Shown here in pieces: positions 8,133 to 29,390 of a stretch of 32,721 bases of DNA; within the stretch, counting starts at the first letter, position 1; each line of letters opens with the position of its first letter. A program made the position numbers and the translations under genes. Under the pieces are notes generated by a model. The model saw only the letters and a list, made by a program, of their open reading frames with translations, made no database searches and was not told the origin of the DNA. The stretch spans positions 1 to 32,721 of IMG/VR virus record IMGVR_UViG_3300033155_001735; one strand, 5' to 3'. The stretch comes from a virus.

Positions 8133-11100
8133 ATGCTAATAGATCTCAATTTCGAGGACGAAGAAGAAGTCCAGGCTCCAGAGACTGAGAGCCAAATCGC
8201 ACTCGAGTTCGAGGGCGAGGAAGGACGCGAACCGTTAGCACCAGGTGTTTCTGGTGAAATGCTCCCTACCGATCGCAATCCCTTTGAGTGGATCCGTGAT
8301 GCCTACATGGAGGGGTACAGCCAAACTCGGAAGAATATCGCCCAGCAAAAAGGTCTGATGTTCGATGAAACCAAAGAAGACACTGCCCGCACTGGAGCTC
8401 GCATTAAAGAGCTCGAGCGCACGGCAGAGGGTTATGGTCCCGAGCTCGATACCATGCAGCAGCTGTACGAGATCTCGGAAGCCGACAGTATCTCCGATGC
8501 AGTAGGCCTGATGATCAAGTACCCCGAGGCCACTGCCCAGGTCACACTATCATCACTCGGACGGTTTGCGCCGGCACTTGCCGTCACTACCGGCGTTGGC
8601 ACGGTTACAGGTGGGGCGGCTCTGCCACTAATGGCTAGCACGTTCATGGGTAGTCTGAGTGTTGAATATGGTGCGGTCATGGACGAGACGATTAGCGAGA
8701 GTGGTTACGACTCCGAGGATCCGCGTGCATGGCAAAAAGCGGTGTCTGACCAGGCAATGCTCGACAAGGCCAGGGAGCGAGGCGTTAAGCGCGGGATACC
8801 AATCGCGGTATTCGATGCGATATCGATGGGGCTGGCGGGCAGGTTACTGGCTGGCGCCAAGCCGACCGCAATATCGATCCTAACCAGATCCACCGGTGAA
8901 CTGGCCCAACAGTCGTTTGCCGGAGGCCTTGGCGAAGCAGCTGCGCAGGTAGTCGAAACAGGCGGCATAGAAAAACCCGGTGAGATTGCACTCGAAGGCT
9001 TTGCCGAGATCGGTCCAGGTATGGTAGAAACTCTGATTGGTTACAAGGGCTCGAAGCAGCAAGCGCTGCGTAAACTGATGGCCGAACAGGCTGGTTACGA
9101 GGCCTCTCAGCGCGTGGCCGATGCTGCGATCACTCCTGATTTCGAAGTCCACACCCTTGAGGAAAATGTTACTGCGATCGATCAAGCGCTTGCGGCTACA
9201 CCACCAACTCCTGAGACGCGCCCCGACGAGGAATCATTAACAGAGAAATTCGAACTCGAGGAGCAACCAGCCGAACCAGAGCCGTTGCTGGATCTGGAAC
9301 AACAGCAGGCCGAGGACGAAGCGAATGTTTATGTGCTCGATCAGCTGCGCGCACAATTCCCTGACGCCAGTGAGGCGGAACTACAGGCGGCGATCACAAC
9401 CGCCAGACCGAAACCCGAGGAACTGCCAACCGAGGAAGATCTGGGCTGGATAGCACCCGAGGAAATCGAACAGCCGCCCCCTGCCAAGACCACTCCGGAG
9501 CCAAAAGGCGGCCAGCCAGATGTCGATTACATGGAGACTACGGCTGTAGAACCCGAGGAAAAAACCCCTGAATGGGGGCCAGTCGACGAGATCTCCCGCG
9601 ACGAGGTAGTACAGGCCACCGAAGCGGTCGAACCGACCGGCGATGCGATAGATACTGCCGAGGCCTACCGCACTGCGCACCCTGAGTTCGAAGGTACGAT
9701 ATTATCGTTCAAGCCTGGAGACGATCGCTACGGCGAGGCGATGGAGCACTATTACGGTGAGATTGCCGGCACCGAAGACGCGGATAATATGCCGGTCGAT
9801 GTCATGCTCAACAAGGATCACGACCCCGGCGCCGATACCCCGATATTCATCATCGACCAGATAGATCCCGATACGCAGGAGTTCCGGCAGCACAAGGTCA
9901 TGGCTGGGTTTGATGAAATGGCAGAGGCCGAGCAGGCCTATATGGATCAGTGGGGCGAGGAAGGCCTGCAAAACACCAGTGAGCTGACGCCCGACGAGTT
10001 CAAGGAATGGATCTCGACCGGCGATCACAAAGTACCGTATGGTGAGACTATTCCAGCTGCAGAAAGTCTGCCTACAACCGAAGAAGTATTGCCAGACGAT
10101 ACCGTTGACGACGACGATCGTTCGTGGGGCCCGCAAGGCGCTCCCGAGGGAATGGAGATCCAGCCAACCGAAATCAACCCGCGCGAATGGATCAGGGCGC
10201 GCAAAACCATGACCGGCGAGTACCCAGGCTGGCCGTCAATTATTGCACAGCAAGACGCACTGAAGGCCGAGGCGGCTGGATTGACACCCGAGCAGTGGAT
10301 GGAGCAAACCCGAAAGAGCCCACCTGACACCGATATTTACAAAGTTGGATATGAGCCGCCAGAGGAAGTCACCGCAGAAAAGTTGACACAGCCTCGAGAG
10401 AACCCTTTCAAGGACAGATCCCGCCCTGATTACATTTTCAAGGAAGATTATGAAATGGGAGTTACCCCAGAGGGGGTCGCCAAATCAGCGCTTGATACTG
10501 CCGGTCAATTGCGTACAGATGCCGAGGAGTTGGTCAAAAAATCTGTTATTGAGGGCGAGTTCCGTGACAAGGTGCTGGAGGAAATTAGGGCACTGAGTAA
10601 AGCCGATCGCGCGGAAGATCAGCGCGTCAGGCAAACCGAGAAAACCCAGCAGAACCTGAAAACCTCCGAAGAAGATGATGCGGTGACGTTTCTTCGCAAG
10701 CTGGGTGGTCTCAATATGACCAGCCAGTCGGATATCCCTGCAGGACGATTGAATCACCTGAATGAAGACAACCGCATGATAGGCCTGCCGGGAATTGAGC
10801 AAACCGGCGATCGTGGCCTATCGCTTTCCAAAGCCACTGAGGCGTTATGGGGAGGCGGATTCATTCCCGCGAACGATGAAACCCTGGCAATTAACCTGCT
10901 GTACGAAGCCGAAAGCGGCCCCCAGTACACTGCCAAAGGTTATGAAATTCGGGCCGCGGCCGAGCAGGAGGCCGAGAACAACCGCGCCCAGCAGGAATAC
11001 GAAGAACGGCTCGAGCAGGATGCCGACGAGATGGCCGCGTATATCATCGAGCAAAGCGGTGGACCGCGCTTCTCGAGCGAAGACATCCCAGAACTGATAT

Positions 11101-12416
11101 CATTGGCAGCTGACGAAGATTACGGAGCTGTAATTGACATCACTGGGGATAACACCTTGTCGGAAGATGAGGTACGAACCAGACTACAGGCGATTATTGA
11201 TGGCGAAGAAATCCAACAAGCAGAAGTTGCTGCAGATACAACAGGCGAGGGAGCGGCAGAGGTTCCTGAAAGCGCACCAGGACTACCGGAGCCAGCACCC
11301 GAAGCCGCAGCCCCCGAAGAAGGCGTAACCCCCGAAGAATATTACGCAGACCTGCAGGAGCAGATCAAAGGCGAACCCAAATGGCGCAAACTACTTGAAG
11401 CCGCGCGCGCTGACGAGGATTTTGCCAAATACCTATCGGCAGAGCACATTAATCAGGAAGCTACAGAGCACGGCTGGATAGCTGGCTACCTGAACGCCAA
11501 AGAGCTTAACCGCACCAGCAGCGCATCACCGAGTGCTGGTGAGAATATCGCTCGGGATCTGGAACTGCATAACGATTTCGCGATGGCTCACTACATCGGG
11601 CAGCAATCATGGATTGGTCGCGAGCGACTGCTCGAGGCGGAAGCGGAACCAGAGGCAAAACCCGAAACACCTGGTGAACAAAGTAACCGATTGGTCGAGC
11701 ACATTACCGAGGCCGATTACCCTGTTGGTACAGAGTACATCTGGGGTGGATTCAAGGCCAAGGTGACAGGGATCCAGACGAGTGAGGAAACAGGCGGGCG
11801 TCCGTTGGTTAATCTGGAAATACTCGAAGGGCCGCGAAAAGGAGCCACTGCCACTGCACCTGGGCACCTTAAAAATCTTCAAGCAGACCTGATTCCCCCG
11901 TTCGACATCGAAACCACTATGGGTACGGTGCGGCTGGACGTTCAATGGGCAATGGGCCTTGAGCGTTACCAGGAGATCTACGAAGAAAAGACGGTTGGCA
12001 TGTTAAACATCCAAATGCACGGTCCGGACGACCGAAACGGTTCGATGCGATATCGCAGCATAGCCGGTATGCCGGTCAGGGCCGAGACCCCAGAGCAACT
12101 GCGCGACCCCGAGTGGATCAAGGATGTCGCGATTACGGCGGCAGATAGTGTGCTGAGAAGGGGCGAATATTTCGGCGAACACGTCAACATGGGCAAATAC
12201 AAGGGCGGCAAAGCAAGGGTAGTGGGGCGACCACCAAGCTCCATGACCGAAGTGCTCGACCTTAGCCGCGAGCCTACCCCGGACGCGAAAGACCTGAACA
12301 AGATCAAAATTGCTGTCAAGACCGACGAGGAAACAGTCTCCCACATGGCGAAGTGGTGGGTCGATGCGCTGGATAAGCGACTCGAAGCGGTCGCGAAATT
12401 GAGGACATGCGCATGA
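8133..12416 (+). CDS. Giant polyvalent protein with pyrophosphatase-like domain
   Basis: A 1427-residue acidic multidomain protein. Residues 1-130 are charged helices. Residues 130-250 are Ala/Gly-rich and partly hydrophobic (SSLGRFAPALAVTTGVGTV, ISMGLAGRLLAGAKPTAISI), as in ejected proteins. Long Glu/Pro linkers follow. About 510-632 is a domain like the inorganic pyrophosphatase (InPase) module known from phage polyvalent proteins: FEGTILSFKPG, then DNMPVDVML (D551, P554, D556), IFIIDQIDPDTQEF, KVMAGFDEMAEAEQAYMDQW and DEFKEWI. Residues about 850-930 resemble a small helical module frequent in such proteins (FLRKLGGLNM, AGRLNHLNEDNRMIGLPG). The C-terminal 250 residues include a beta-rich SH3-like stretch (FKAKVTGIQTSEETGGRPLV). 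The start has no good SD, so the true start could lie slightly elsewhere. Polyvalent proteins are thought to enter with phage DNA. Confidence 0.72.
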   Translation: MLIDLNFEDEEEVQAPETESQIALEFEGEEGREPLAPGVSGEMLPTDRNPFEWIRDAYMEGYSQTRKNIAQQKGLMFDETKEDTARTGARIKELERTAEGYGPELDTMQQLYEISEADSISDAVGLMIKYPEATAQVTLSSLGRFAPALAVTTGVGTVTGGAALPLMASTFMGSLSVEYGAVMDETISESGYDSEDPRAWQKAVSDQAMLDKARERGVKRGIPIAVFDAISMGLAGRLLAGAKPTAISILTRSTGELAQQSFAGGLGEAAAQVVETGGIEKPGEIALEGFAEIGPGMVETLIGYKGSKQQALRKLMAEQAGYEASQRVADAAITPDFEVHTLEENVTAIDQALAATPPTPETRPDEESLTEKFELEEQPAEPEPLLDLEQQQAEDEANVYVLDQLRAQFPDASEAELQAAITTARPKPEELPTEEDLGWIAPEEIEQPPPAKTTPEPKGGQPDVDYMETTAVEPEEKTPEWGPVDEISRDEVVQATEAVEPTGDAIDTAEAYRTAHPEFEGTILSFKPGDDRYGEAMEHYYGEIAGTEDADNMPVDVMLNKDHDPGADTPIFIIDQIDPDTQEFRQHKVMAGFDEMAEAEQAYMDQWGEEGLQNTSELTPDEFKEWISTGDHKVPYGETIPAAESLPTTEEVLPDDTVDDDDRSWGPQGAPEGMEIQPTEINPREWIRARKTMTGEYPGWPSIIAQQDALKAEAAGLTPEQWMEQTRKSPPDTDIYKVGYEPPEEVTAEKLTQPRENPFKDRSRPDYIFKEDYEMGVTPEGVAKSALDTAGQLRTDAEELVKKSVIEGEFRDKVLEEIRALSKADRAEDQRVRQTEKTQQNLKTSEEDDAVTFLRKLGGLNMTSQSDIPAGRLNHLNEDNRMIGLPGIEQTGDRGLSLSKATEALWGGGFIPANDETLAINLLYEAESGPQYTAKGYEIRAAAEQEAENNRAQQEYEERLEQDADEMAAYIIEQSGGPRFSSEDIPELISLAADEDYGAVIDITGDNTLSEDEVRTRLQAIIDGEEIQQAEVAADTTGEGAAEVPESAPGLPEPAPEAAAPEEGVTPEEYYADLQEQIKGEPKWRKLLEAARADEDFAKYLSAEHINQEATEHGWIAGYLNAKELNRTSSASPSAGENIARDLELHNDFAMAHYIGQQSWIGRERLLEAEAEPEAKPETPGEQSNRLVEHITEADYPVGTEYIWGGFKAKVTGIQTSEETGGRPLVNLEILEGPRKGATATAPGHLKNLQADLIPPFDIETTMGTVRLDVQWAMGLERYQEIYEEKTVGMLNIQMHGPDDRNGSMRYRSIAGMPVRAETPEQLRDPEWIKDVAITAADSVLRRGEYFGEHVNMGKYKGGKARVVGRPPSSMTEVLDLSREPTPDAKDLNKIKIAVKTDEETVSHMAKWWVDALDKRLEAVAKLRTCA

Positions 12417-12781
12417 AAGCCACACAGAAGATGCTGGACGACGCCATTAAGGATGGCGCTGATGTGAAGCCGATCCGTAAGGTACAGCCACCACCAGCTA
12501 AACAAGAGGCAATGAAGGCCTTAGAGTCAGTTTCCGACAAATCTGACGAGATATCGCTTTTAAGGGCCGAAATAACGCAACTAAGGGCAGAGCTCGCGGA
12601 ATCGAAGACAGTGGCTACAAATCGTTCTGAGGAGCTCACAACCCTATTTTCAGCCCTATCCGAGAATAAACCGGTTCGATTAAAGCCGGTTCGAGACATG
12701 AACCGTGAATCACCCACTTATTTGCTGGTAGAGTATTATGATTTCATACCCGTAAAATACACACGGAAACTTGACTCATGA
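12413..12781 (+). CDS. Small coiled-coil protein between the two giant proteins
   Basis: A protein of 122 residues from the ATG at 12413. An in-frame ATG six bases upstream is less likely, because GAGG at 12401-12404 is 8 bases from the 12413 ATG but only 2 from the other. The chosen ATG also overlaps the upstream TGA (ATGA). Residues 1-35 are basic, and residues 40-75 form a heptad coiled coil (SDEISLLRAEITQLRAELAE). The C-terminal 40 residues are a small domain (LKPVRDMNRESPTYLLVEYY) with several aromatics. Its end overlaps the start of the 3155-residue gene by ATGA. It could be a partner or chaperone of the giant proteins, but only the gene order supports this. Confidence 0.7.
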   Translation: MKATQKMLDDAIKDGADVKPIRKVQPPPAKQEAMKALESVSDKSDEISLLRAEITQLRAELAESKTVATNRSEELTTLFSALSENKPVRLKPVRDMNRESPTYLLVEYYDFIPVKYTRKLDS

Positions 12782-15700
12782 GCCTGAAAGACTGCCTCAG
12801 AATAGTAAAAACGCTGGATCCAGCGGATCGCGACTCGTTTAACGCCGAGTTCGAGACGCTGACCAAGGGCGGGATACCGCCAGAGGAAGCCTATGCCGAA
12901 GCTGCCGAAGCGGTCATGGAATCTATCCTGAGCGATCGCAACGATCTGGCAACCGATATCGTTGGGAAAGAGGGGTATCTCGAAACGCTGACATTAGAAC
13001 ACCTGGTCAACCCTGCCAGCTACGAACAGGCCCCGCGCGGATTAGCTGGCGATATCGCCAAAATGTCCAGTGATGATTTCGACGCGCTCCTCGAGGAGGC
13101 CGCACCGACACCCACCAAGGACGTGCCTGTACCGAAAGAGCCAGAGCCGAAGCCTGCAAAGGCCCGTGCACCGGCCATATTCATTGGGACTCGTCGTGGC
13201 AAGAAGCTGCGTAAGGAGAGCGTAAAACAGCTCCGAGCGGTGGCGAGGGAAGCCGATATCACCGGTTATTCCAAAATGGACAAAGAGACCCTGGCGACCA
13301 GGCTTGAGGCGTGGTACGACGCGCAGGCCTTGGCTGCATTGCCGACACCACCAGACAGCGCAGCCGACACGCTGAAATACGCCGGCTACACCAGAGCGGA
13401 TTCCGGCATCGGATTTGTTGTCAATTCAGTTGGTTTTGCTGGACATCCATTAAGCGACAGCACTGGCGCGCAAGTAGCGGTTACCGGACAAAAGGATGCT
13501 GACACTAGCATTGGTGCCTGGGCGCGTCACTTTGGATCCACTGTTGAGAAAAAAGCCCCGACGTATGAAGGCGAGAAAACCCCGAAGGGATATCACTTTC
13601 AAGGGACCGATGAATTCGCGAGATTCGTGAAGGCCTACACCGGCAAGGAACTGGACACCACCAGAACAACCACTGATAGCCCTACTGAATTGAGTTATGT
13701 CAATTACAAGACAGAGCCGAAAGAGATCGAGACCTTCGAGCGCGGCGACAAGGTTGAAATAGTACCTGATACGCCGGGCGAGCCATCGATCCCCGGTGAG
13801 ATCATGGGGTCCGTGGGCAGCATGGAAGCCTCACCGGATGGTATCAAGCATACCCTTGAGAGCTACGTGGTCAGGTACGAGGATCCAGAGAGCGGCGAGA
13901 TCAAGAACGAGGGCTTCCACCCATCGTTCCTGCGCGAGCGCAAGCCACCCGGGAAGAAGGCCAGAGCCGCACTGAAAGCGGCAGCCAAGCACGGCGTTAA
14001 GGGCGCCGATGAAGCACTGACAGGCCTTACCGAGCTATTCGGTGGTAAGGGTAAATTCTCCAGCGGATTCACGTTTGACGAGGAGACCTATGCCAAGGCA
14101 AAACCCCATTTTAAGAAAGCGCTCGAGGAGTTCGTAGCAGCCGGTAAATCGCTGAAAGAATTCCTCCAGTACATCCTCGAAAACTTTGGCGAGGGTATCA
14201 AGCCGTATTTAAGGCAATTCCACCAGGACGTTTCTAGTGGTAATATAACAGTCAGAGGCGTAAATGATGTTCAATCTACCACACAGGAACAGGCTGCAGC
14301 TGGCGAGCCACGTGCAGAGCCAACAGATCAAGGCGATATTGAAGCTGCCGGAGTCCCAGATGCAGAAGTTCCTCTCGAAACAGGTGAGCGACCTGCAGAA
14401 GAAGAAGGTACCCCTGCGGATCGCATTGGCCTACCAGTTGATAGCCCCGTTGATGTTGGAGAACAAGGCGATATTGACGTTCTCGGAGATTCCGGAGAAT
14501 TTCAGCCTGAAAGCGGCGTTACCGGACGTGAAGACACCGGACGAGGCGCTGCAGCTGGCGCAAAAGGAGTATCAGCTCAAACCCCAGGAAGTCGCAAAGC
14601 TCAAGCCGATGCTCGATCGACTGCGAGCCGCCTAAAACTCAAACCTACCACCAGCACCTGGGTCCAGTCGGATCCCGAGAATGTTGCGGCAACCCTGCCA
14701 GCGCTATTCCCTGAACAGCTCGATGACGTGGTATTCGCCGAGAAGCGGATATACGATAATGGCGCGCGTGGTGTCATGTTCACCAATGGTACCGGTACCG
14801 GCAAGACCTTCACCGGCCTGGGCATTATCAAGCGCATGGTCATGCAGGGTAAAGACAACATCCTGATTGTGGTCCCTGGAGAGAAAGTCGCCGCTGACTG
14901 GATCAAAGCAGGCATTGTGCTCGACCTCGATATCACCAAGCTGAAAGGTGTCAAAGACGCCGGCAACGGTGTGGTGATAACGAGTTATGCCAATATTTCT
15001 GAAAATGATGAAATCGTTAAGCGCGACTGGGATCTGGTCGTTCACGACGAGGCGCACAAGCTATCCGAGAATATGGCGGGTAATGCCACCAATGCACTGA
15101 ACAAGTCACGCGCCCTGACAGGCCACCCTGACGGTGGGATCCACTACGCCTCGTCGATGGAACGCCCACTACTGGACGAAATGAAAGGCCTGCGCGATCA
15201 GATCGAGCATTGGATGGCCGAAGCTCAATTAAACCCGCAAAAGGCAGGTATGTTCTCTGATCAGGCTGAAAAGGCGTCTGACCAGCTGGAAGTGCTTAAC
15301 TCTCTGTGGCGCGAGAAAAGCCGCGCACACATTCAAAACCGCAAGGAGCTCTGGGCCGCGAATACCACCAAACGGCTAGATCTGACTGCTACCCCGTTTG
15401 CTTACGAGAAGTCGGTCGACCATGCCGAGGGCTTTTTGTTCGAATACGATCGCAGCATCGATCAGCAGAGCCGCGGCTACAACCAGCCAGATTCTCGAGG
15501 CTCGTTCTTTGTCGAGCATTTCGGGTACAGGATGCGCTACGGAAAGCTGACCGAGCCAGAAGCTGGTGTCGATCGTGGTTTGATGCAACGCCAGTTCAAC
15601 ACCTGGTTGAAAGATCAGGGGGCACTGCGCGGCCGCGTATTGACTGTTGATCACGACTACTCTCGCGAATTCGTTGCTATCGATGATCTGGTGGGGAAGA

Positions 15701-18700
15701 AGATCGATGATGGTTGGGATATGATTCGCCAGCGCGGGGCCGACAAGGAAAACCCGAACCAGAAAGGTTACGATCTGATGGAAAAGCAGCTGCGAAAGCA
15801 GTTCAACTATCATGCCCGGGTCCGGATGCTCGAGGCCATCAAGGCACGGTTCGCGGTTAAGCGCGCTCGCCAGCACATGGCACTGGGGCGCAAGGTGGTA
15901 TTTTTCCACTCGCGGATCAAGGGCGGCACCATGAATCCGTTCCACGTATTCGCGTCCGGAGCCGCTATGGCCGACAGCGATATCGCTCCTACCGACGAGG
16001 ATGCAGCAATGTACCAGGCTGCCGCTTCTGAGTTCGTGAACGAGCGACATGATCTGATGACGCTGGATATCAATACGGTACGACCACTGGATCTGTTCGC
16101 CGAGGAATTCGGTAACGAGCTCACACTATATAACGGTACGATCACCAACAAGGCGAAGCGGGAAAACCCCGATAGATTCAACAGCGACACCGACGAAATT
16201 CAAGTAATCGCAGTACAGGACGAAGGTGGCAAGGAGGGTATAAGCCTGCACGACGCCACCGGTGCCAACCAGCGCGTATTGATCAACCTGGGTTTACCTG
16301 TGAGACCGACACAAGCGATCCAGATAGAGGGCCGGATCTATCGCGTTGGGCAAATGTCGAACGCTATATTCGAGTATTTCAATACCGGTACCAACTTCGA
16401 GCGCATGACGTTTGCCGAGAAGATATCGGAGCGGGCCAGTACCGCCGAAAATCTAGCGATGGGCGAACAGGCGCGAACGCTGAAAGATTCGTTCATCGAC
16501 GCTTATGAAGATCCAAGTTTCTTGGATCCGAGTGACGCCCAGGGCGTGGGTGGTAAGGAGACCGATCGGGCGATCTGGGGAGAGATCAGTGAGTTTGATC
16601 GAGCCAAGACCCATTACTTCGGTACGCTCAAAACCAAGGGCAAACGCGATCAAAGAGCTGGTGTTGATTATTTCGCCACACCGGAACCACTCGGCATGAA
16701 AATGGTCGAGTGGGCGAGTATCAAACCCAATGAGTCCGTGCTCGAACCCAGCGCCGGCCATGGTGCGATCGGACGTTACTTTCCGGAGCTCGCGAACTCA
16801 ACCTATGTCGAGCCATCGAGTGAGCTGATATCGCGTCTCGCGCTGCGAGCACCAGGTAACCACCGGCAAATGCGGTTCGAGGATCTGGACGTGGGCGGCA
16901 ACAAGTACAGCGCTATTGTGATGAACCCGCCATTTGGTTCTGGTGGCTCAACCGCTATGGCTCATTTACACAAGGCCATGCATCACCTGAAAAATGGTGG
17001 TCGTATCGTAGCACTGATCCCACGGGGCCCAGCTGCAGATAAGAAATTCGATAACATGTTCTACGGCAAGGAAGGCGAACTCGAACAGATGCGCGAGCAG
17101 TTGAAGGCAAAGCGCAAAACAGGCGGGAGTGTCGCTGATGAAACACGACGCATCGAGGATCTGACCAAGTATCACATGCGAGCCAATATCGGTTTGCCAC
17201 CGATCACTTTCACCCGTGCCGGTACCGCGATCAGTGCGCGCGTGGTGGTTATTGACAAGATCATGAATGACGATGCTGTAGTGGTAAACCAGCCACCGCG
17301 TGATGTCCATGCAGACACTATCAACGAACTGTTCGATAAGATTCAGGATTTCACTGTTCCCGATCGCACCGAGCGATCGCAGGAGCCATCCGCCTACCTC
17401 GCGAAAGAGGGGCTGGTTGTAAGCCCAGACGAGGATAATGGCGTGTGGCGCATACTGGGCAAAACCTTTGAGCACCGCACACTGATCAGGCGAGCACTGG
17501 GGGATACCGTCGAATACAAGGGCGGCAGCTGGATAGCGACCGAGGATCCAACTGAGGCGCTATACAAGGAAATGGTCGCGCCTTTGGAAGAAAAAGAAGC
17601 TGCGCCAATACCCAAGCCAGTTTGGGTTAAACAGGACTATCAGGAATTCAAATCCACAGACGCATCGATCAACAAAACCTTAAATCCGGTCACAGTCGGT
17701 ATTGTCGAGAAAAATTACGGTTGGCTATCAGGCACCATCAATGCCGATCTGGGCGGAGGAATGCACGACAACACCGTTGAGTACATGAAGAATATCGGTG
17801 TCGAGCATGTGGTATATGACCCCTTTAACCGTTCCGACGAGTATAACGCGGAATCCGTTGAGAAGATCAGGGATGGCAAGGCCAATACCGTTACTATCAA
17901 TAACACGCTGAATGTTGTCAAAGAGCCAGAGCTTCGCCAGCAGTTATTAATGGAGGCCGAAAACGCGCTCAAGCCCGGTGGTAGTTTGTATATTCAGATC
18001 TACGAGGGCGATCGTAGCGGGGTAGGTCGCCACACTAAAGGCGATATCTGGCAGGAAAACCGTAAGGCGACAGATTTCTTGACAGAAATTAAGAAAGTTT
18101 TCCCTAATGCCGAGGTTAAATACGGGCTAATTAGTGCCCAGAAATTCATTACTGCCGTGAAGCCGGATATCGCCTCTGCAGCAGCTGCATTGTTCTCAGG
18201 GCGTTCAGGCCAGTTGCCGAATGCCCCGAGTGCCCGGTTCGAGACCGCCGAGACCACCCATGCGAAAAAAGGCATCGATTTGTTTGTCGCCTCTTTCAAG
18301 GAACGTGAAAGTCGTGAGGAATACCTGCGGGTGCTCCAGATCGCGAAAGAACACGGTGGATTCCATTCTTCGTACAAGGCGAAGGGTGCAATTCCGGGAT
18401 TTCAATTTGAATCTGCGGAAGAACGAGCGGCATTTCTCGAGAAAGCTGGTCGGAAGCCACAGGCTCTGATCGGTCGCCGCACTGGTGGATCCACCCCCGC
18501 CCAGGTGCGCAAATACCTGACGGTACCGCTCAAGCGGATCAGTAGCCGAATCCGGATCGAGATCGTCGCCAAGGCCAGTGATATCCCAACCCTGCATGAT
18601 CTCGCGCGGGACGCTAAGGGCTGGTTCATTGATGGCAAGGTGTACCTGGTTGCAGAGAATATTCGCAATCAGGGTGATGCTATTACCGCGTTCACGCATG

Positions 18701-21700
18701 AGACCGTGGGGCATCTGGGCCTCGAGGGCACACTGGGCCGGCGCAAGACCAATGAGCTCGTCGGTGATATCGTTAATATGAAGGTCGAGGAAATGATCGC
18801 CCCTGGTACGCATCCGGAACTCGCAAAGATTCTCAATATCCTGCGCCGGAACTATGTTGACAAAAAAGGCGAATACACGCTAAATCCACGTGATGAAGCA
18901 CTGGAAGTAATTGCTCATATTGCAGAAAGCAAGCCGAGAGTCGGTATGTTCGTTGAGATCTATAATAAGATTCTGAACTGGTTGCGGCAGCAGCTGGTGA
19001 AATGGGGTATCGGGGATCCGGATATAGCCCAGATCGAGGATGCTCTGGTACGCGCGGTTGACTTCGTGAAGGATCCACCATCGTACTATACCGGTGAAGA
19101 TATGGCCGGCGCGGCAGCGATGCGGTCATCGCCCAAGCTGCGCGTTGCCGGTATCGGCAAGGATGGAGAATTGTATATTGGGAATCCTGGTGAATTACAT
19201 TTACATTTGCTTGACAGATATGCCGACAAAATACAAGCGAATGCTGGTTTACCGGTAACCGAAAGGCCGTGGGATCAACTCGGTTTTGCCGATAGCGAGG
19301 GTAATTTTCTGACTCGGGAAGAAGCCTTGATAGTGGTTCAGGAAACGATACCAGGGTTTGAGCCTTGGGATGCCTCTTTTACCCCAGAAGGTGAATCGAA
19401 ACTCGACGCACTTGATTACAAAACCCGAGTTAAGCCTGCACAAAAACCATTAGCGAGCCGCAGGCCTGGCGAACCGGAACCGAGCGAGCACGAACAAGAG
19501 GCTTTCCGAAAGTTGGGCCTCGGCGGCAAGAAAACCCTGTGGCAGAAACTCAATAACCTGCGATTAAAGGTCGTTGTTGAGACACTGGACGCAATGGCTG
19601 GTCGTGGATATGAAGGCCTGTTCGATGGCCTGATCGAGATCAAGCGCAGGGAAATTGAGTCTGGTGTTGGTATTGGTGCCAATGACTACGAGAATTCCGC
19701 CTACGTTTCAGCACGCATGGCAACCGGTGTCGCGGACATGATGACCCACGTACTGCATTACGGGGCCCTACAATGGCAGGCTGGTGTCGCCGCCCATGTC
19801 GAAAACACCCGTGGGCTACTCGACCTGTTTAATGATCTGGGTATTGATAAGCTGAACGACTGGTTGCTGTGGATGGGCGCACATCGTGCCAAGGAACTGA
19901 TGAAAGAGGGCCGCGAGCGCAATCTGACTGAGGATGAAATAGCCGCAGGTATCGCCAAGGCTGGTCCGGAAGGTAGCGAAACGCACAAACTGTTTAATCG
20001 CATCAAAAACGAATATGCGTTCATGAACAAGATGATGCTGGATTTCTCGGAGACAGCAGGCCTGATCGATCCGATCAAACGAGCCGAGTGGGAGAGCGAC
20101 TGGTACGTGCCGTTCTATCGCATGTCCGAGGGCGAGCTCGAGGGGCCGCGCATCAAGCGAGGCCTGTCGCACCAGAGCGCGGGGATCCGCCGCTTGTTCG
20201 GTGCCGACATCCCGACCAATGATCTGCTCGAGAACATCATGACCAACTGGCTCAAGCTGACCGATTCCGCGGTGAAGAACCATGCGCTGCGCCTGATGAT
20301 CGATAACTTCGAGGAGACGGATTACATCACCAGCGAGACCATGCGGTTCACGAAGGCTCTGGTACCAAAATCCGAAATTCGCAAACGCATTGTTGCTGAC
20401 CGTGCTTTTGCAAAGCAGGTAGCGGAGTACCTGGGCATGGAGGAAACCGCGAACAATATGGAGATTATCAACGAGGTTAACCAGATCCCGAGCCAAGGCT
20501 TCGAGCAGCTGTGGGCGCTGACTGCACCGAAGGATCCTGATATCGTGCGCGTCAAGCGAAATGGTAAAAACGAATACTGGCGCGTTCACATACCAGGTCT
20601 GTTGCGCGCGGTAGGGCACATCAATGAAAAAGGGATATCGAACAGTCAGGGAATGCGGGCCGCGCGTTGGTTCAAGCGACTCCTGACAACCGGTGTCACT
20701 TCCTCGCCTGATTTCATGTTGCGTAACTTCATCCGCGACGCGGCGCACAGCTGGGCGATCAACCCCGACAATATGTGGTTCGGAGTGGATGCGTTCAAAG
20801 GCCTGAAAAAAGCGCTCGACGAGGATCCACTTTACCGCGCGGCAATGGCCTCGGGCGCGTCTTTCCAGGGAGGGTATGTCCATGCGACTGACCCTGCAGC
20901 CTCTGCCCAGATCCTCCGGCGCGAGCTCGAGAAGGCAGGCCTGACTCAGGAAGCCATTCACGGTCATTTTGGCAGTATTATCAACACACCGCGCAGGTTG
21001 AAAAGTGTGCTCCTGCAGGGCTGGCAGCACTACCGGACTGTAGGTGACAAGATCGAGAACGCGAATCGACTGGCAACACTCGATGCAGCGATCAAGGCGG
21101 GCAAGCCAATGGCGCAAGCACTGTTCGAGTCCAAGGATCTGATGGACTACAGCCGGCGCGGTAACTTCGCGATGTTGATCGCCTTCACTGACATGATGCC
21201 ATTCCTGAACGCGCGTATGCAGGGTGTCGACAAACTGGGCCGCGCTGCCAAGCAGGATCCAAAGATCATCGCGCGCAAAGCGGCCATGATTGGCACGTTC
21301 TCGGTTATCCTGGCGATGATGAACGACGACGACGAACGCTACAAGGAGCTACCGGACTGGGAGAAAGACGCTTACTGGCATTTCTGGATCGATCTGGGCT
21401 CACCAACAGATGGCCACTGGCGGATCCCGAAGCCTTTCGAGCTCGGTGTTCTCGCCGGCACTCTACCCGAGCGCGCATATCGTGTGTGGGTCAGCAAGTC
21501 ACAGCCGAGTGAAAAGTTCTTGTGGTCGCTGCAGCACGGACTGATGGAAACCATGAATATCAACTGGGGGATCCCACAGTTTGCACTGCCAGTCGTCGAG
21601 GTCACGCGCAATCGGTCGTTCTATTTCGATCAACCGATCGAGAGCATATCGGACGAGGGGGTGATCCCGAAAGAGAGGTATAACGCTTTCACCAGCAACA

Positions 21701-22245
21701 CTGCGATCGCACTGTCCGACAATGCCCTGGCCGAGTGGATGGGGATATCGCCGAAGCAGATGCAGCACCTGTGGAATGGTTACACCGGCACTATGGGCGC
21801 CTACGCACTCAAGCTGGGCGATATGATCGTCCGTGGTGTCAGTAATCAACCCAGCCGCGAGGCGATTATGCCGCACGATATACCTATCATGCGCTCGGTC
21901 TACCAGGGCGATCGCAAGAAAGGCACCCAGTGGGCAACCGATTTCTATGACCGGCTACAGGAAGTTCGCGAGATCCATTCCACCATGAATCGATATCTCG
22001 AGCAGGGCAAGCGACAAAAAGCCCTCGATTATCGCTTCGAGCACAAAGGCAAACTGAAATTGCGCCGGATGTTGGAAAACCGTGGCAAGATATTCGGACA
22101 GCTGCGCGATAAGCGCGACCGGATCCTGAGAGACGAGGAGCTAAGCCGGTCCGAGAAGTACCAAAAATCGCAGGAGATCCAGGCACGAATCAATCAAATC
22201 GCCAAGCAGATCGAGTCTCAGACCCGCGCAGCATTTTCGGAGTAG
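12778..22245 (+). CDS. Giant polyvalent protein: helicase, methyltransferases, zincin-like, LPD38-like
   Basis: A 3155-residue protein. Visible modules in order: a Rho_N/SAP-like segment (about 140-180); a basic SH3-like stretch (about 319-390); a helical module (FDEETYAKAKPHFKKALEEF, about 430-480); a disordered linker (about 490-620); a DEAH helicase with Walker A GTGTGKT (671-677), DEAH (757-760) and motif VI QIEGRIYRVGQ (1182-1192); an N6-adenine methyltransferase with EPSAGHG (1323 on) and NPPFG (1383 on); a second Rossmann methyltransferase-like domain with DLGGG (1657 on) and VVYDPFNR; a module KKGIDLFVASFKERESREEY (about 1829-1893); a zincin-like HETVGH (1974-1979); FADSEGNFLTREEA (about 2165); and an LPD38-like C-terminal region (about 2628-2900). 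This helicase plus methyltransferase layout is like P1 DarB-type antirestriction proteins. The likely role is protecting or processing incoming DNA in the cell. Confidence 0.87.
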   Translation: MSLKDCLRIVKTLDPADRDSFNAEFETLTKGGIPPEEAYAEAAEAVMESILSDRNDLATDIVGKEGYLETLTLEHLVNPASYEQAPRGLAGDIAKMSSDDFDALLEEAAPTPTKDVPVPKEPEPKPAKARAPAIFIGTRRGKKLRKESVKQLRAVAREADITGYSKMDKETLATRLEAWYDAQALAALPTPPDSAADTLKYAGYTRADSGIGFVVNSVGFAGHPLSDSTGAQVAVTGQKDADTSIGAWARHFGSTVEKKAPTYEGEKTPKGYHFQGTDEFARFVKAYTGKELDTTRTTTDSPTELSYVNYKTEPKEIETFERGDKVEIVPDTPGEPSIPGEIMGSVGSMEASPDGIKHTLESYVVRYEDPESGEIKNEGFHPSFLRERKPPGKKARAALKAAAKHGVKGADEALTGLTELFGGKGKFSSGFTFDEETYAKAKPHFKKALEEFVAAGKSLKEFLQYILENFGEGIKPYLRQFHQDVSSGNITVRGVNDVQSTTQEQAAAGEPRAEPTDQGDIEAAGVPDAEVPLETGERPAEEEGTPADRIGLPVDSPVDVGEQGDIDVLGDSGEFQPESGVTGREDTGRGAAAGAKGVSAQTPGSRKAQADARSTASRLKLKPTTSTWVQSDPENVAATLPALFPEQLDDVVFAEKRIYDNGARGVMFTNGTGTGKTFTGLGIIKRMVMQGKDNILIVVPGEKVAADWIKAGIVLDLDITKLKGVKDAGNGVVITSYANISENDEIVKRDWDLVVHDEAHKLSENMAGNATNALNKSRALTGHPDGGIHYASSMERPLLDEMKGLRDQIEHWMAEAQLNPQKAGMFSDQAEKASDQLEVLNSLWREKSRAHIQNRKELWAANTTKRLDLTATPFAYEKSVDHAEGFLFEYDRSIDQQSRGYNQPDSRGSFFVEHFGYRMRYGKLTEPEAGVDRGLMQRQFNTWLKDQGALRGRVLTVDHDYSREFVAIDDLVGKKIDDGWDMIRQRGADKENPNQKGYDLMEKQLRKQFNYHARVRMLEAIKARFAVKRARQHMALGRKVVFFHSRIKGGTMNPFHVFASGAAMADSDIAPTDEDAAMYQAAASEFVNERHDLMTLDINTVRPLDLFAEEFGNELTLYNGTITNKAKRENPDRFNSDTDEIQVIAVQDEGGKEGISLHDATGANQRVLINLGLPVRPTQAIQIEGRIYRVGQMSNAIFEYFNTGTNFERMTFAEKISERASTAENLAMGEQARTLKDSFIDAYEDPSFLDPSDAQGVGGKETDRAIWGEISEFDRAKTHYFGTLKTKGKRDQRAGVDYFATPEPLGMKMVEWASIKPNESVLEPSAGHGAIGRYFPELANSTYVEPSSELISRLALRAPGNHRQMRFEDLDVGGNKYSAIVMNPPFGSGGSTAMAHLHKAMHHLKNGGRIVALIPRGPAADKKFDNMFYGKEGELEQMREQLKAKRKTGGSVADETRRIEDLTKYHMRANIGLPPITFTRAGTAISARVVVIDKIMNDDAVVVNQPPRDVHADTINELFDKIQDFTVPDRTERSQEPSAYLAKEGLVVSPDEDNGVWRILGKTFEHRTLIRRALGDTVEYKGGSWIATEDPTEALYKEMVAPLEEKEAAPIPKPVWVKQDYQEFKSTDASINKTLNPVTVGIVEKNYGWLSGTINADLGGGMHDNTVEYMKNIGVEHVVYDPFNRSDEYNAESVEKIRDGKANTVTINNTLNVVKEPELRQQLLMEAENALKPGGSLYIQIYEGDRSGVGRHTKGDIWQENRKATDFLTEIKKVFPNAEVKYGLISAQKFITAVKPDIASAAAALFSGRSGQLPNAPSARFETAETTHAKKGIDLFVASFKERESREEYLRVLQIAKEHGGFHSSYKAKGAIPGFQFESAEERAAFLEKAGRKPQALIGRRTGGSTPAQVRKYLTVPLKRISSRIRIEIVAKASDIPTLHDLARDAKGWFIDGKVYLVAENIRNQGDAITAFTHETVGHLGLEGTLGRRKTNELVGDIVNMKVEEMIAPGTHPELAKILNILRRNYVDKKGEYTLNPRDEALEVIAHIAESKPRVGMFVEIYNKILNWLRQQLVKWGIGDPDIAQIEDALVRAVDFVKDPPSYYTGEDMAGAAAMRSSPKLRVAGIGKDGELYIGNPGELHLHLLDRYADKIQANAGLPVTERPWDQLGFADSEGNFLTREEALIVVQETIPGFEPWDASFTPEGESKLDALDYKTRVKPAQKPLASRRPGEPEPSEHEQEAFRKLGLGGKKTLWQKLNNLRLKVVVETLDAMAGRGYEGLFDGLIEIKRREIESGVGIGANDYENSAYVSARMATGVADMMTHVLHYGALQWQAGVAAHVENTRGLLDLFNDLGIDKLNDWLLWMGAHRAKELMKEGRERNLTEDEIAAGIAKAGPEGSETHKLFNRIKNEYAFMNKMMLDFSETAGLIDPIKRAEWESDWYVPFYRMSEGELEGPRIKRGLSHQSAGIRRLFGADIPTNDLLENIMTNWLKLTDSAVKNHALRLMIDNFEETDYITSETMRFTKALVPKSEIRKRIVADRAFAKQVAEYLGMEETANNMEIINEVNQIPSQGFEQLWALTAPKDPDIVRVKRNGKNEYWRVHIPGLLRAVGHINEKGISNSQGMRAARWFKRLLTTGVTSSPDFMLRNFIRDAAHSWAINPDNMWFGVDAFKGLKKALDEDPLYRAAMASGASFQGGYVHATDPAASAQILRRELEKAGLTQEAIHGHFGSIINTPRRLKSVLLQGWQHYRTVGDKIENANRLATLDAAIKAGKPMAQALFESKDLMDYSRRGNFAMLIAFTDMMPFLNARMQGVDKLGRAAKQDPKIIARKAAMIGTFSVILAMMNDDDERYKELPDWEKDAYWHFWIDLGSPTDGHWRIPKPFELGVLAGTLPERAYRVWVSKSQPSEKFLWSLQHGLMETMNINWGIPQFALPVVEVTRNRSFYFDQPIESISDEGVIPKERYNAFTSNTAIALSDNALAEWMGISPKQMQHLWNGYTGTMGAYALKLGDMIVRGVSNQPSREAIMPHDIPIMRSVYQGDRKKGTQWATDFYDRLQEVREIHSTMNRYLEQGKRQKALDYRFEHKGKLKLRRMLENRGKIFGQLRDKRDRILRDEELSRSEKYQKSQEIQARINQIAKQIESQTRAAFSE
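14254..14258 (+). promoter_or_regulatory. Internal Shine-Dalgarno for embedded ORF
   Basis: AGAGG lies 5 bases before an ATG at 14264 and 8 bases before a second ATG at 14267. It sits inside the 3155-residue gene but is correctly placed for a different frame. An in-frame TAA for that frame (14261-14263) directly precedes the ATG. Confidence 0.55.
14264..14635 (+). CDS. Candidate overprinted gene inside the giant protein's linker
   Basis: A 123-codon frame lies wholly inside the giant gene but in the +1 frame. It has an AGAGG ribosome site and an ATGATG start. The product is basic and looks folded: two amphipathic helical parts (QQIKAILKLPESQMQKFLSK, IALAYQLIAPLMLENKAIL) and a C-terminal helix pair (DEALQLAQKEYQLKPQEVAK). 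Over the same stretch the giant protein is a Gly/Glu/Ala/Asp/Pro linker, so the alternative frame is free to vary. By hand count, giant-frame third positions end in G or C in 17 of the first 60 codons here, against 36 of 60 in a stretch from 13021, as expected if the other frame sets the bases. No family is recognised. It may be an artefact of linker composition, but the ribosome site argues for a real gene. Confidence 0.5.
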   Translation: MMFNLPHRNRLQLASHVQSQQIKAILKLPESQMQKFLSKQVSDLQKKKVPLRIALAYQLIAPLMLENKAILTFSEIPENFSLKAALPDVKTPDEALQLAQKEYQLKPQEVAKLKPMLDRLRAA

Positions 22246-27215: not shown

Positions 27216-27416
27216 ATGAGACAACAACACACGACCATCCCGTGGGGCCCGGTCATCCCCCATGAAACCTACGAGGGTTATGTCGCCTTCTGTGAGCGGC
27301 AGAGGGATCGCGTTAGGCGAATAAACCCCGATTTCGAGCGCAGGCACCAGGAGCGGCGGGAAAGCCCGGTACAATACAAACATCACTCAATGGGGGTAAA
27401 CAATGCTATCACCTGA
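27216..27416 (+). CDS. Small basic protein at the head of the early operon
   Basis: A 66-residue protein with GGAG 7 bases before the ATG. Sequence features: PWGPVIPHETYEGYVAFCER, then a strongly basic helix (QRDRVRRINPDFERRHQERR). Its last 14 bases overlap the start of the exonuclease gene. No family is recognised. Its position, first in the rightward early transcript, and its basic character are compatible with a small regulatory or nucleic-acid-binding protein, but this is inference. Confidence 0.6.
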   Translation: MRQQHTTIPWGPVIPHETYEGYVAFCERQRDRVRRINPDFERRHQERRESPVQYKHHSMGVNNAIT

Positions 27417-28305
27417 ACAGAGACAGGCCCGCAAGGCGGGAATCGGAGGCAGCGATGTGGCTGCAATTATGGGAATGTCACCATGGAAGACAAGGCACGA
27501 GGTCTATCTGGAGAAACGCGGCGAGATCGAGGAAGAAAATATCGATGATAAGGAAATTATTATTTTTGGTAACCTGCTCGAGGATGTCGTCGCCGGTGAA
27601 TATGCGCGCCGAAACAAGGTAAAGGTCGAGCGCCGAAACGATATGATCAAACACTCTAAGCACGAGTTTATGCTGGCAAACATCGACCGCAAGGTAGTTG
27701 GTGTGAAGAAAGGGCTCGAATGCAAGACTGGTGATAAGTACACCCGTGGCAACTGGGGCGAAGCGGGCACTGATCAGGTGCCTGACTACTACCATATCCA
27801 ATGCGGCCACTATATGAACGTACTGGATTACCCTGTCTGGGATCTGGCAGTGTTGATCGGCGGCAATGAGTACCGTGATTACACGCTAGAGCGTGACAAG
27901 GAGCTGTCCGAGTTGATGGAGGAATCCTGCATTACGTTCTGGGAACAGGTGACAAAGGGCGTCCCGCCTGAGATCGATTTCGCGCACCAGTCCACCACCG
28001 GCTTGATCAAACGCATGTACCCCGGCACCAATGGTGAGGAAATTATCTTGCCCGAGGATCTGGAGCGTTGGCATCAGGTCAAACTGGACTCTGATGAAGA
28101 AGTTAAGCGCTACACCGCTGTATCTACTGCCTGCAAGGCACGCATCCTTGCTGCAGTTGGCGAGAATGCGGTCGGGATCCTGCCAAACCTGGGCACGCAG
28201 TACAAGCGTAGCGAGGTTAAGAAGAAGGAATACGTCGTCTCAGCAACCAGTTATTTCCAGATGCGAAATAGCAAATACACCCCCCCAAAGGAGGGAAAAG
28301 CATGA
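27403..28305 (+). CDS. YqaJ-type viral exonuclease/recombinase
   Basis: A 300-residue protein, typical YqaJ-family size. These are lambda-exonuclease-like PD-(D/E)XK enzymes that resect double-strand ends 5' to 3'. Visible motifs: GIGGSDVAAIMGMSPW at residues 13-28, the helix FGNLLEDVVAGEYA, LANIDR with D95, then GLECKTGD with E106 and K108 as the metal-binding E-x-K, followed by QCGHYMNVLD. GGGGG precedes the ATG. The stop overlaps the RecT start (ATGA). Together with RecT it forms a two-component homologous recombination system. Confidence 0.93.
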   Translation: MLSPEQRQARKAGIGGSDVAAIMGMSPWKTRHEVYLEKRGEIEEENIDDKEIIIFGNLLEDVVAGEYARRNKVKVERRNDMIKHSKHEFMLANIDRKVVGVKKGLECKTGDKYTRGNWGEAGTDQVPDYYHIQCGHYMNVLDYPVWDLAVLIGGNEYRDYTLERDKELSELMEESCITFWEQVTKGVPPEIDFAHQSTTGLIKRMYPGTNGEEIILPEDLERWHQVKLDSDEEVKRYTAVSTACKARILAAVGENAVGILPNLGTQYKRSEVKKKEYVVSATSYFQMRNSKYTPPKEGKA

Positions 28306-29390
28306 ATCAGGTAGCTAAACAAATATCACCGGTCAATCAGTTTAGGAGCGTCCTCGAGGGAAGCATGAGGGCAGAAGTTGCCAAGCAGCTGCCCAAGGGC
28401 GTCGACCCTGATCGATTCATCCGTACTACCATCACTACTGTACAAATGAACCCCGAGTTGTTGAATGCCAATCGCTCCAGTTTGTTTGCATCTTGCATGC
28501 AGGCCGCTAAGGATGGGTTGCTGCCGGATGGTCGCGAGGCCACCATCCAGATCTATAACACGAAGATCCGCAAGCCTGATGGTGGTGAAGAATGGGTCAA
28601 GATGGCGCAGTACATGCCTATGGTTCGCGGCCTGATCAAGAAAATGTACGAAGCTGGCTGCACAAAGGTCGACGGTGTGGCTGTATATGAAAAGGATGAT
28701 TTTGTTTATGAGCTGGGTGACGATCCAAAGATTGAACATCGCCCTTACTTGGGCACCGAAGATCCAGGGCCGGTTATTGCATCCTACGCCATTGTGAAAC
28801 TTGAAAATGGTGAAATCAAACGGGAGGTCATGCCGCGCCGCGATATCGATAAGGTTCGTGAGGCGAGTAAATCCAGTAGCGGACCGGGTTGGTCGATTTG
28901 GTACGATCAGTTTGCTATCAAAGCCGTGCTGAAACGGATCTACAAGCAGGTACCAGGGCGCAGCGACGAGTTCGAGGCAGTCGCCGAAGCGGATAATCAG
29001 GCTCTGGGTATCACTTTTGATAATCATCATGCCGAGGACATGCCGGTGCCGGCGCTTGAAAATGAGAAGGAATCGGTTAATACAGGAGCCGCTAAGCGAC
29101 TTGTTTCTAAAATCAAGGATAAGGTCGAGCCAGATGGTTTGGCGCCTGAGAATGCCGCACAAGAGGCCGAGGAGGCTATTGTGGAAGGAGAGTCGATGTC
29201 TATTCGGGGTACTGAAGGTCACAACCCAGAAGCAGAGGAAAAGCCGAAACTCGAAGACATCCCCGGCTTGACAAAGGGTATGAAAACCAATGTGAAGGAT
29301 GGCAAGAAAGACCCGAAGGACCAGAGCACCGCGGAGTACATAGCCGACATGGATAAGCCCAGTGACGTGGAGGGTGGTAGCGATGATTAA
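28302..29390 (+). CDS. recT: RecT-family single-strand annealing protein
   Basis: A 362-residue protein. RecT coats and anneals complementary single strands made by the exonuclease. The core (residues 5-245) has the RecT pattern: FIRTTITTVQMNPELLNANR, SLFASCMQAAKDGLLPDGRE, QYMPMVRGLIKKMYEAG, and WYDQFAIKAVLKRIYKQV. The C-terminal 120 residues are acidic and low-complexity. AAAGGAGGG lies 7 bases before the ATG, one of the strongest ribosome sites in the window, and the ATG overlaps the exonuclease stop. High expression and coupling to the exonuclease are likely. Confidence 0.95.
   Translation: MNQVAKQISPVNQFRSVLEGSMRAEVAKQLPKGVDPDRFIRTTITTVQMNPELLNANRSSLFASCMQAAKDGLLPDGREATIQIYNTKIRKPDGGEEWVKMAQYMPMVRGLIKKMYEAGCTKVDGVAVYEKDDFVYELGDDPKIEHRPYLGTEDPGPVIASYAIVKLENGEIKREVMPRRDIDKVREASKSSSGPGWSIWYDQFAIKAVLKRIYKQVPGRSDEFEAVAEADNQALGITFDNHHAEDMPVPALENEKESVNTGAAKRLVSKIKDKVEPDGLAPENAAQEAEEAIVEGESMSIRGTEGHNPEAEEKPKLEDIPGLTKGMKTNVKDGKKDPKDQSTAEYIADMDKPSDVEGGSDD

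Follow-up and report, generated by a model that had tools for sequence, protein, structure and literature searches.

Genes embedded out of frame within other genes are a known kind in phages. In lambda, Rz1 lies in this way inside Rz, and a functionally sensitive position in one frame is mutationally silent in the other (PMC5295617), while in a mycobacteriophage an out-of-frame HNH endonuclease gene lies within a DNA methylase gene (PMC12613952). Here we describe a nested gene in the IMG/VR virus record IMGVR_UViG_3300033155_001735, whose 32,721 bases make up the window that we analysed. It lies in the +1 frame of a gene for a giant protein, which is a member of the polyvalent proteins of Iyer et al. 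2017 (PMC5512222; Pfam PF18857), because ResIII/SNF2 helicase, methyltransferase-like MTS and LPD38 domains are found by Pfam in its single chain. The conservation and the start signals set out below make it highly probable that this is a real and old coding gene, translated by internal initiation inside the giant message; that confidence extends to the nested gene and to its mode of translation, and not to the role as a partner of the giant that we consider later.

The likeness to Rz1 is one of layout only, and no sequence similarity would be expected. Rz1 is an outer-membrane lipoprotein of lysis, whereas the nested product described here is a predicted soluble helical protein, and the host gene, unlike Rz, is a polyvalent-protein gene of roughly 3-12 kb. 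The mycobacteriophage gene is likewise tied to a phage DNA-methylase gene, but it encodes an HNH endonuclease, whereas the protein described here matches no endonuclease family and its gene, unlike the mycobacteriophage one, is fixed at a single site across distant phages. A preliminary description of the window had pointed to a 123-codon open reading frame (ORF) in the +1 frame, with an AGAGG motif and an ATGATG start, and this ORF is present where the following features place it:

12778-22245, plus strand: host gene, encoding the giant polyvalent protein of 3155 amino acids (from the ORF call and the Pfam domains ResIII/SNF2 helicase, methyltransferase-like MTS and LPD38)
13900-14250, plus strand: upstream region of the giant, FTFDEETYAKAKPHF...KPYLRQFHQDV, common to other giants that are without the nested gene
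14254-14258, plus strand: AGAGG, Shine-Dalgarno-like site of the nested gene, 5 nt before its start
14264-14635, plus strand: predicted nested gene in the +1 frame of the giant, 123 codons and the stop TAA, with a tandem ATGATG (from the ORF call, homologues and selection)
14257-14640, plus strand: linker of the giant in its own frame, over the nested gene; disordered-like in composition, stop-free, and without detectable constraint on its amino acids
14641-15990, plus strand: SNF2/ResIII-like helicase domain of the giant, adjoining the overlap downstream and used as an independent bait

When the 123-amino-acid product was searched by tblastn against 50,697 phage records, eight matched (expectation value, E, 2e-13 to 1e-3), representing six distinct phages: Skulduggery and Parlo with two records each, two Vibrio phages, Klebsiella ZX1 and Ruegeria 45A6, whose hosts are Pseudomonas, Serratia, Klebsiella, Vibrio and Ruegeria. 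The same eight records carry the helicase part of the giant, and every match lies inside the giant coding sequence, in its +1 frame. Two plasmid records, from Comamonas and Acinetobacter, were also matched by tblastn, and scans with an alignment of the small protein added 30 IMG/VR loci and one metagenome-assembled genome of the Gammaproteobacteria; E. coli genomes gave no match. The position is constant in every homologue found: the +1 frame of a helicase/methyltransferase/LPD38 giant, just before the helicase domain. The nested ORF is unannotated in all six phage regions that we opened, and likewise in the plasmid tables checked.

For an independent test, in which the nested frame was not the query, we made an alignment from the giant's helicase part alone and scanned IMG/VR with it; the best 80 of 232 relatives were fetched, part of these contigs being ones already met through the small-protein search. 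The small-protein profile matched 79 of these best 80 relatives, at 50 to 178 bits, and all 79 nested ORFs lie in the +1 frame of a giant whose own frame is open for at least 183 codons upstream. The sole exception, locus L132, has a free-standing helicase gene, and a hidden Markov model search found the ORFs upstream of it to be unrelated. The nested gene was also not found in the giant-type loci L002-L004, though the upstream region of the giant is common to them. Additional cases from later scans were all in the +1 frame, and no free-standing copy was found in viral, phage, plasmid and genome collections. Over all loci there are 90 distinct small proteins of 119-140 amino acids (66 clusters when grouped at 70% identity), in which the +1 frame is open and conserved; this was the check on homologues that the preliminary description had proposed. 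An Acinetobacter oleivorans plasmid record (L043, 13616-17626) has a short version of the host gene, of 1336 amino acids, in which the nested ORF persists, again in the +1 frame and 128 codons from the annotated start of that gene. In L012 (IMGVR_UViG_3300049043_000362) the nested ORF is intact and the giant gene is split into many short ORFs, a breakage that is perhaps due to sequencing errors.

Each substitution in 26 disjoint pairs of relatives was classed as synonymous or nonsynonymous in both frames, which gives simple counting estimates of the nonsynonymous to synonymous ratio for the +1 frame (pN/pS) and for the giant frame (gN/gS). Over the overlap, all 26 pairs have pN/pS below 1 (median 0.54), a sign of purifying selection on the +1 frame, and 25 of them have gN/gS above 1 (median 1.47). 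Every pair shows the opposite order in the flanks (pN/pS 1.53, gN/gS 0.47), where it is the giant frame that is under purifying selection, and a windowed version of the comparison is also in favour of the nested gene. We also counted stops across related sequences against shuffles of the synonymous codons of the small gene: over the overlap the giant frame has 0 stops where 112 are expected, which means that this frame is still needed, whereas the third frame has 747 against 696 expected in the same shuffles. Compared with 79 homologues, the small protein of the window reaches a mean z of 11.5, against 1.8 for its giant linker. Because of the substitution ratios and the stop counts, we conclude that the sequence of the small protein is selected, while the giant linker is selected only to stay open. 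Both the linker character of the giant in this stretch and the constraint that the other frame places on the bases, as originally proposed, are thereby upheld. As the substitution patterns show, the overlapped part of the giant acts as a passive linker, its sequence dictated by the nested gene.

The length of the window ORF could be taken to favour an open frame that arose by chance in a GC-rich gene, or an RNA or DNA element that constrains the bases, since that length is ordinary: the +1 frame stays open in 14.5% of shuffles that preserve the giant protein (P 0.145). The window also holds antisense ORFs longer than the nested one. However, the amino acids of the +1 frame are conserved while synonymous positions vary, in independent lineages, and the 79/80 result of the helicase bait, together with the pairwise selection, refutes a chance frame or an element, to which we give practically no credence. 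The evidence that decides for the nested gene is its conservation and not the length of the ORF.

The second ATG of the tandem, at 14267, lines up with the start of the homologues and is probably the true start of the nested gene. The start codon is ATG in 65/66 clusters and GTG in one, and a Shine-Dalgarno-like site is correctly placed in 51/66 clusters, compared with 4.9% of 4048 control ATGs (p 2e-53). Judging by the start, this site and the selection, ribosomes would begin internally on the giant message, at the nested gene's own Shine-Dalgarno site and ATG. If the nested frame were instead entered from the giant frame by programmed frameshifting, the product would be a truncated giant with an alternative C-terminus, and the nested frame is indeed the +1 frame of the giant in all cases. 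However, homology begins at the conserved ATG with its Shine-Dalgarno site, and the previous in-frame stop lies directly before the ATG in the window and in 5/66 clusters and no more than 10 codons from the start in 27/66. In many lineages the frame is thus closed directly or shortly upstream, and it has a conserved start of its own, which a frameshift product would not need. Internal initiation is favoured because of the conserved ATG and Shine-Dalgarno site and these close upstream stops, and frameshifting appears very improbable.

The consensus of the small proteins has an N-terminus of M-x-Q-V-P-x-x-x-W-N-x-I-A and a core of A-Y-x-x-x-x-P-L-L-x-E-x-x-A-I, and the product, about 14 kDa in size, would be soluble and all-helical. 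The earlier expectation of a foldable product agrees with the AlphaFold2 model, which is all-helical when built from an alignment of 28 window, IMG/VR and genome-contig sequences (predicted template modelling score 0.71, predicted local distance difference test 80; 65 from the single sequence). No significant match was found in Pfam, PHROGs, NCBIfam and PDB sequences or by Foldseek in PDB and BFVD. Matches to the PrmC/HemK N-terminal domain (E 0.02-0.5) were at chance level and were not used. By the libraries searched, the small protein is a new predicted family.

We suggest, tentatively, that the small protein works with the giant as a helper or partner, because this giant is the only setting in which the small gene was met, always at the same position. 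It might bind the giant, for example keeping it soluble, inactive or packageable before injection. It is about equally possible that the nested gene is real and that its product, for instance an early regulator or anti-defence protein, acts independently of the giant and is trapped by the overlap; this alternative concerns only the role and not the nested gene. The products of many nested viral genes are accessory proteins that have no relation to the host frame (PMC8227390), and overlap by itself would hold both genes together, but the small gene has been met only within this giant in the viral, phage, plasmid and genome collections. Several points weigh against our overall interpretation of a nested gene whose product serves the giant. 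The case for a partner role is built on co-occurrence, a pattern that physical overlap could produce by itself, and the absence of a family or fold match leaves the function without a pointer. As for the window itself, its copy is divergent, with no W in place of the conserved one in the N-terminal WN motif and a net charge of +8 against a mean of -3.5, and it has no relative close enough to test selection within its lineage.

Codon usage bears on which of the two frames came first. The preliminary description had counted codons ending in G or C in the giant frame as 36/60 from 13021, which we reproduce, and as 17/60 from the start of the overlap, where we count 15/60. Over the whole overlap, G or C stands at the third position in 36/124 codons of the giant frame (29%), lower than in any other windows of that gene (mean 62%, s.d. 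9), and in 100/123 codons of the +1 frame (81%). In 69/80 loci the nested frame is closer to the codon usage of the giant than the overlapped stretch of the giant frame is, and by the codon-usage criterion for the older of two overlapping frames, reviewed in PMC8227390, this would make the nested frame the older. However, an unconstrained linker would give the same codon picture. The nested gene may, although we think it rather unlikely, once have stood on its own as a small gene, with an upstream gene on one side and the helicase gene on the other, and have been engulfed when these two fused; fusion would have come about by read-through in the other frame, and the giant linker would be a by-product of out-of-frame reading. 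Such an order is the reverse of classical overprinting. Therefore, of the earlier term "overprinted gene", the overlapping gene is supported, while the implied order, with the nested gene younger than the giant, is not established, as codon usage fits an older nested gene equally well.

Directly upstream of the giant, at 8133-12416, is a gene for a second large polyvalent protein, of 1427 amino acids, with an InPase-type domain. Between the two, a 124-amino-acid ORF at 12407-12781 shares a few terminal bases with each large gene and has only weak PHROG and Pfam matches. A gene pair at 27403-29390 encodes a RecE-like exonuclease and a RecT-like annealing protein.

The arrangement had been put forward as new, and this holds in part: nested out-of-frame phage genes were already known, but none is described in the polyvalent class in the literature searched, which mostly excluded subscription journals, and the word "overlapping" was not found in the text of PMC5512222. 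A nested gene of a putative new family in the linker of a polyvalent giant, conserved from Ruegeria to Vibrio and Pseudomonas phages, is likewise unreported in that literature. A deeply conserved gene and protein family has gone unnoticed in the annotation of the phage and plasmid records checked, apparently because the gene lies wholly inside a giant gene, and it gives gene finders that disallow overlaps a clear test case. Our results suggest that, where a giant phage protein has a disordered linker, the same DNA can also encode a second protein. Giant polyvalent proteins are thought to be injected into the host, and the nested gene may provide an independent handle on how these proteins are made or packaged.
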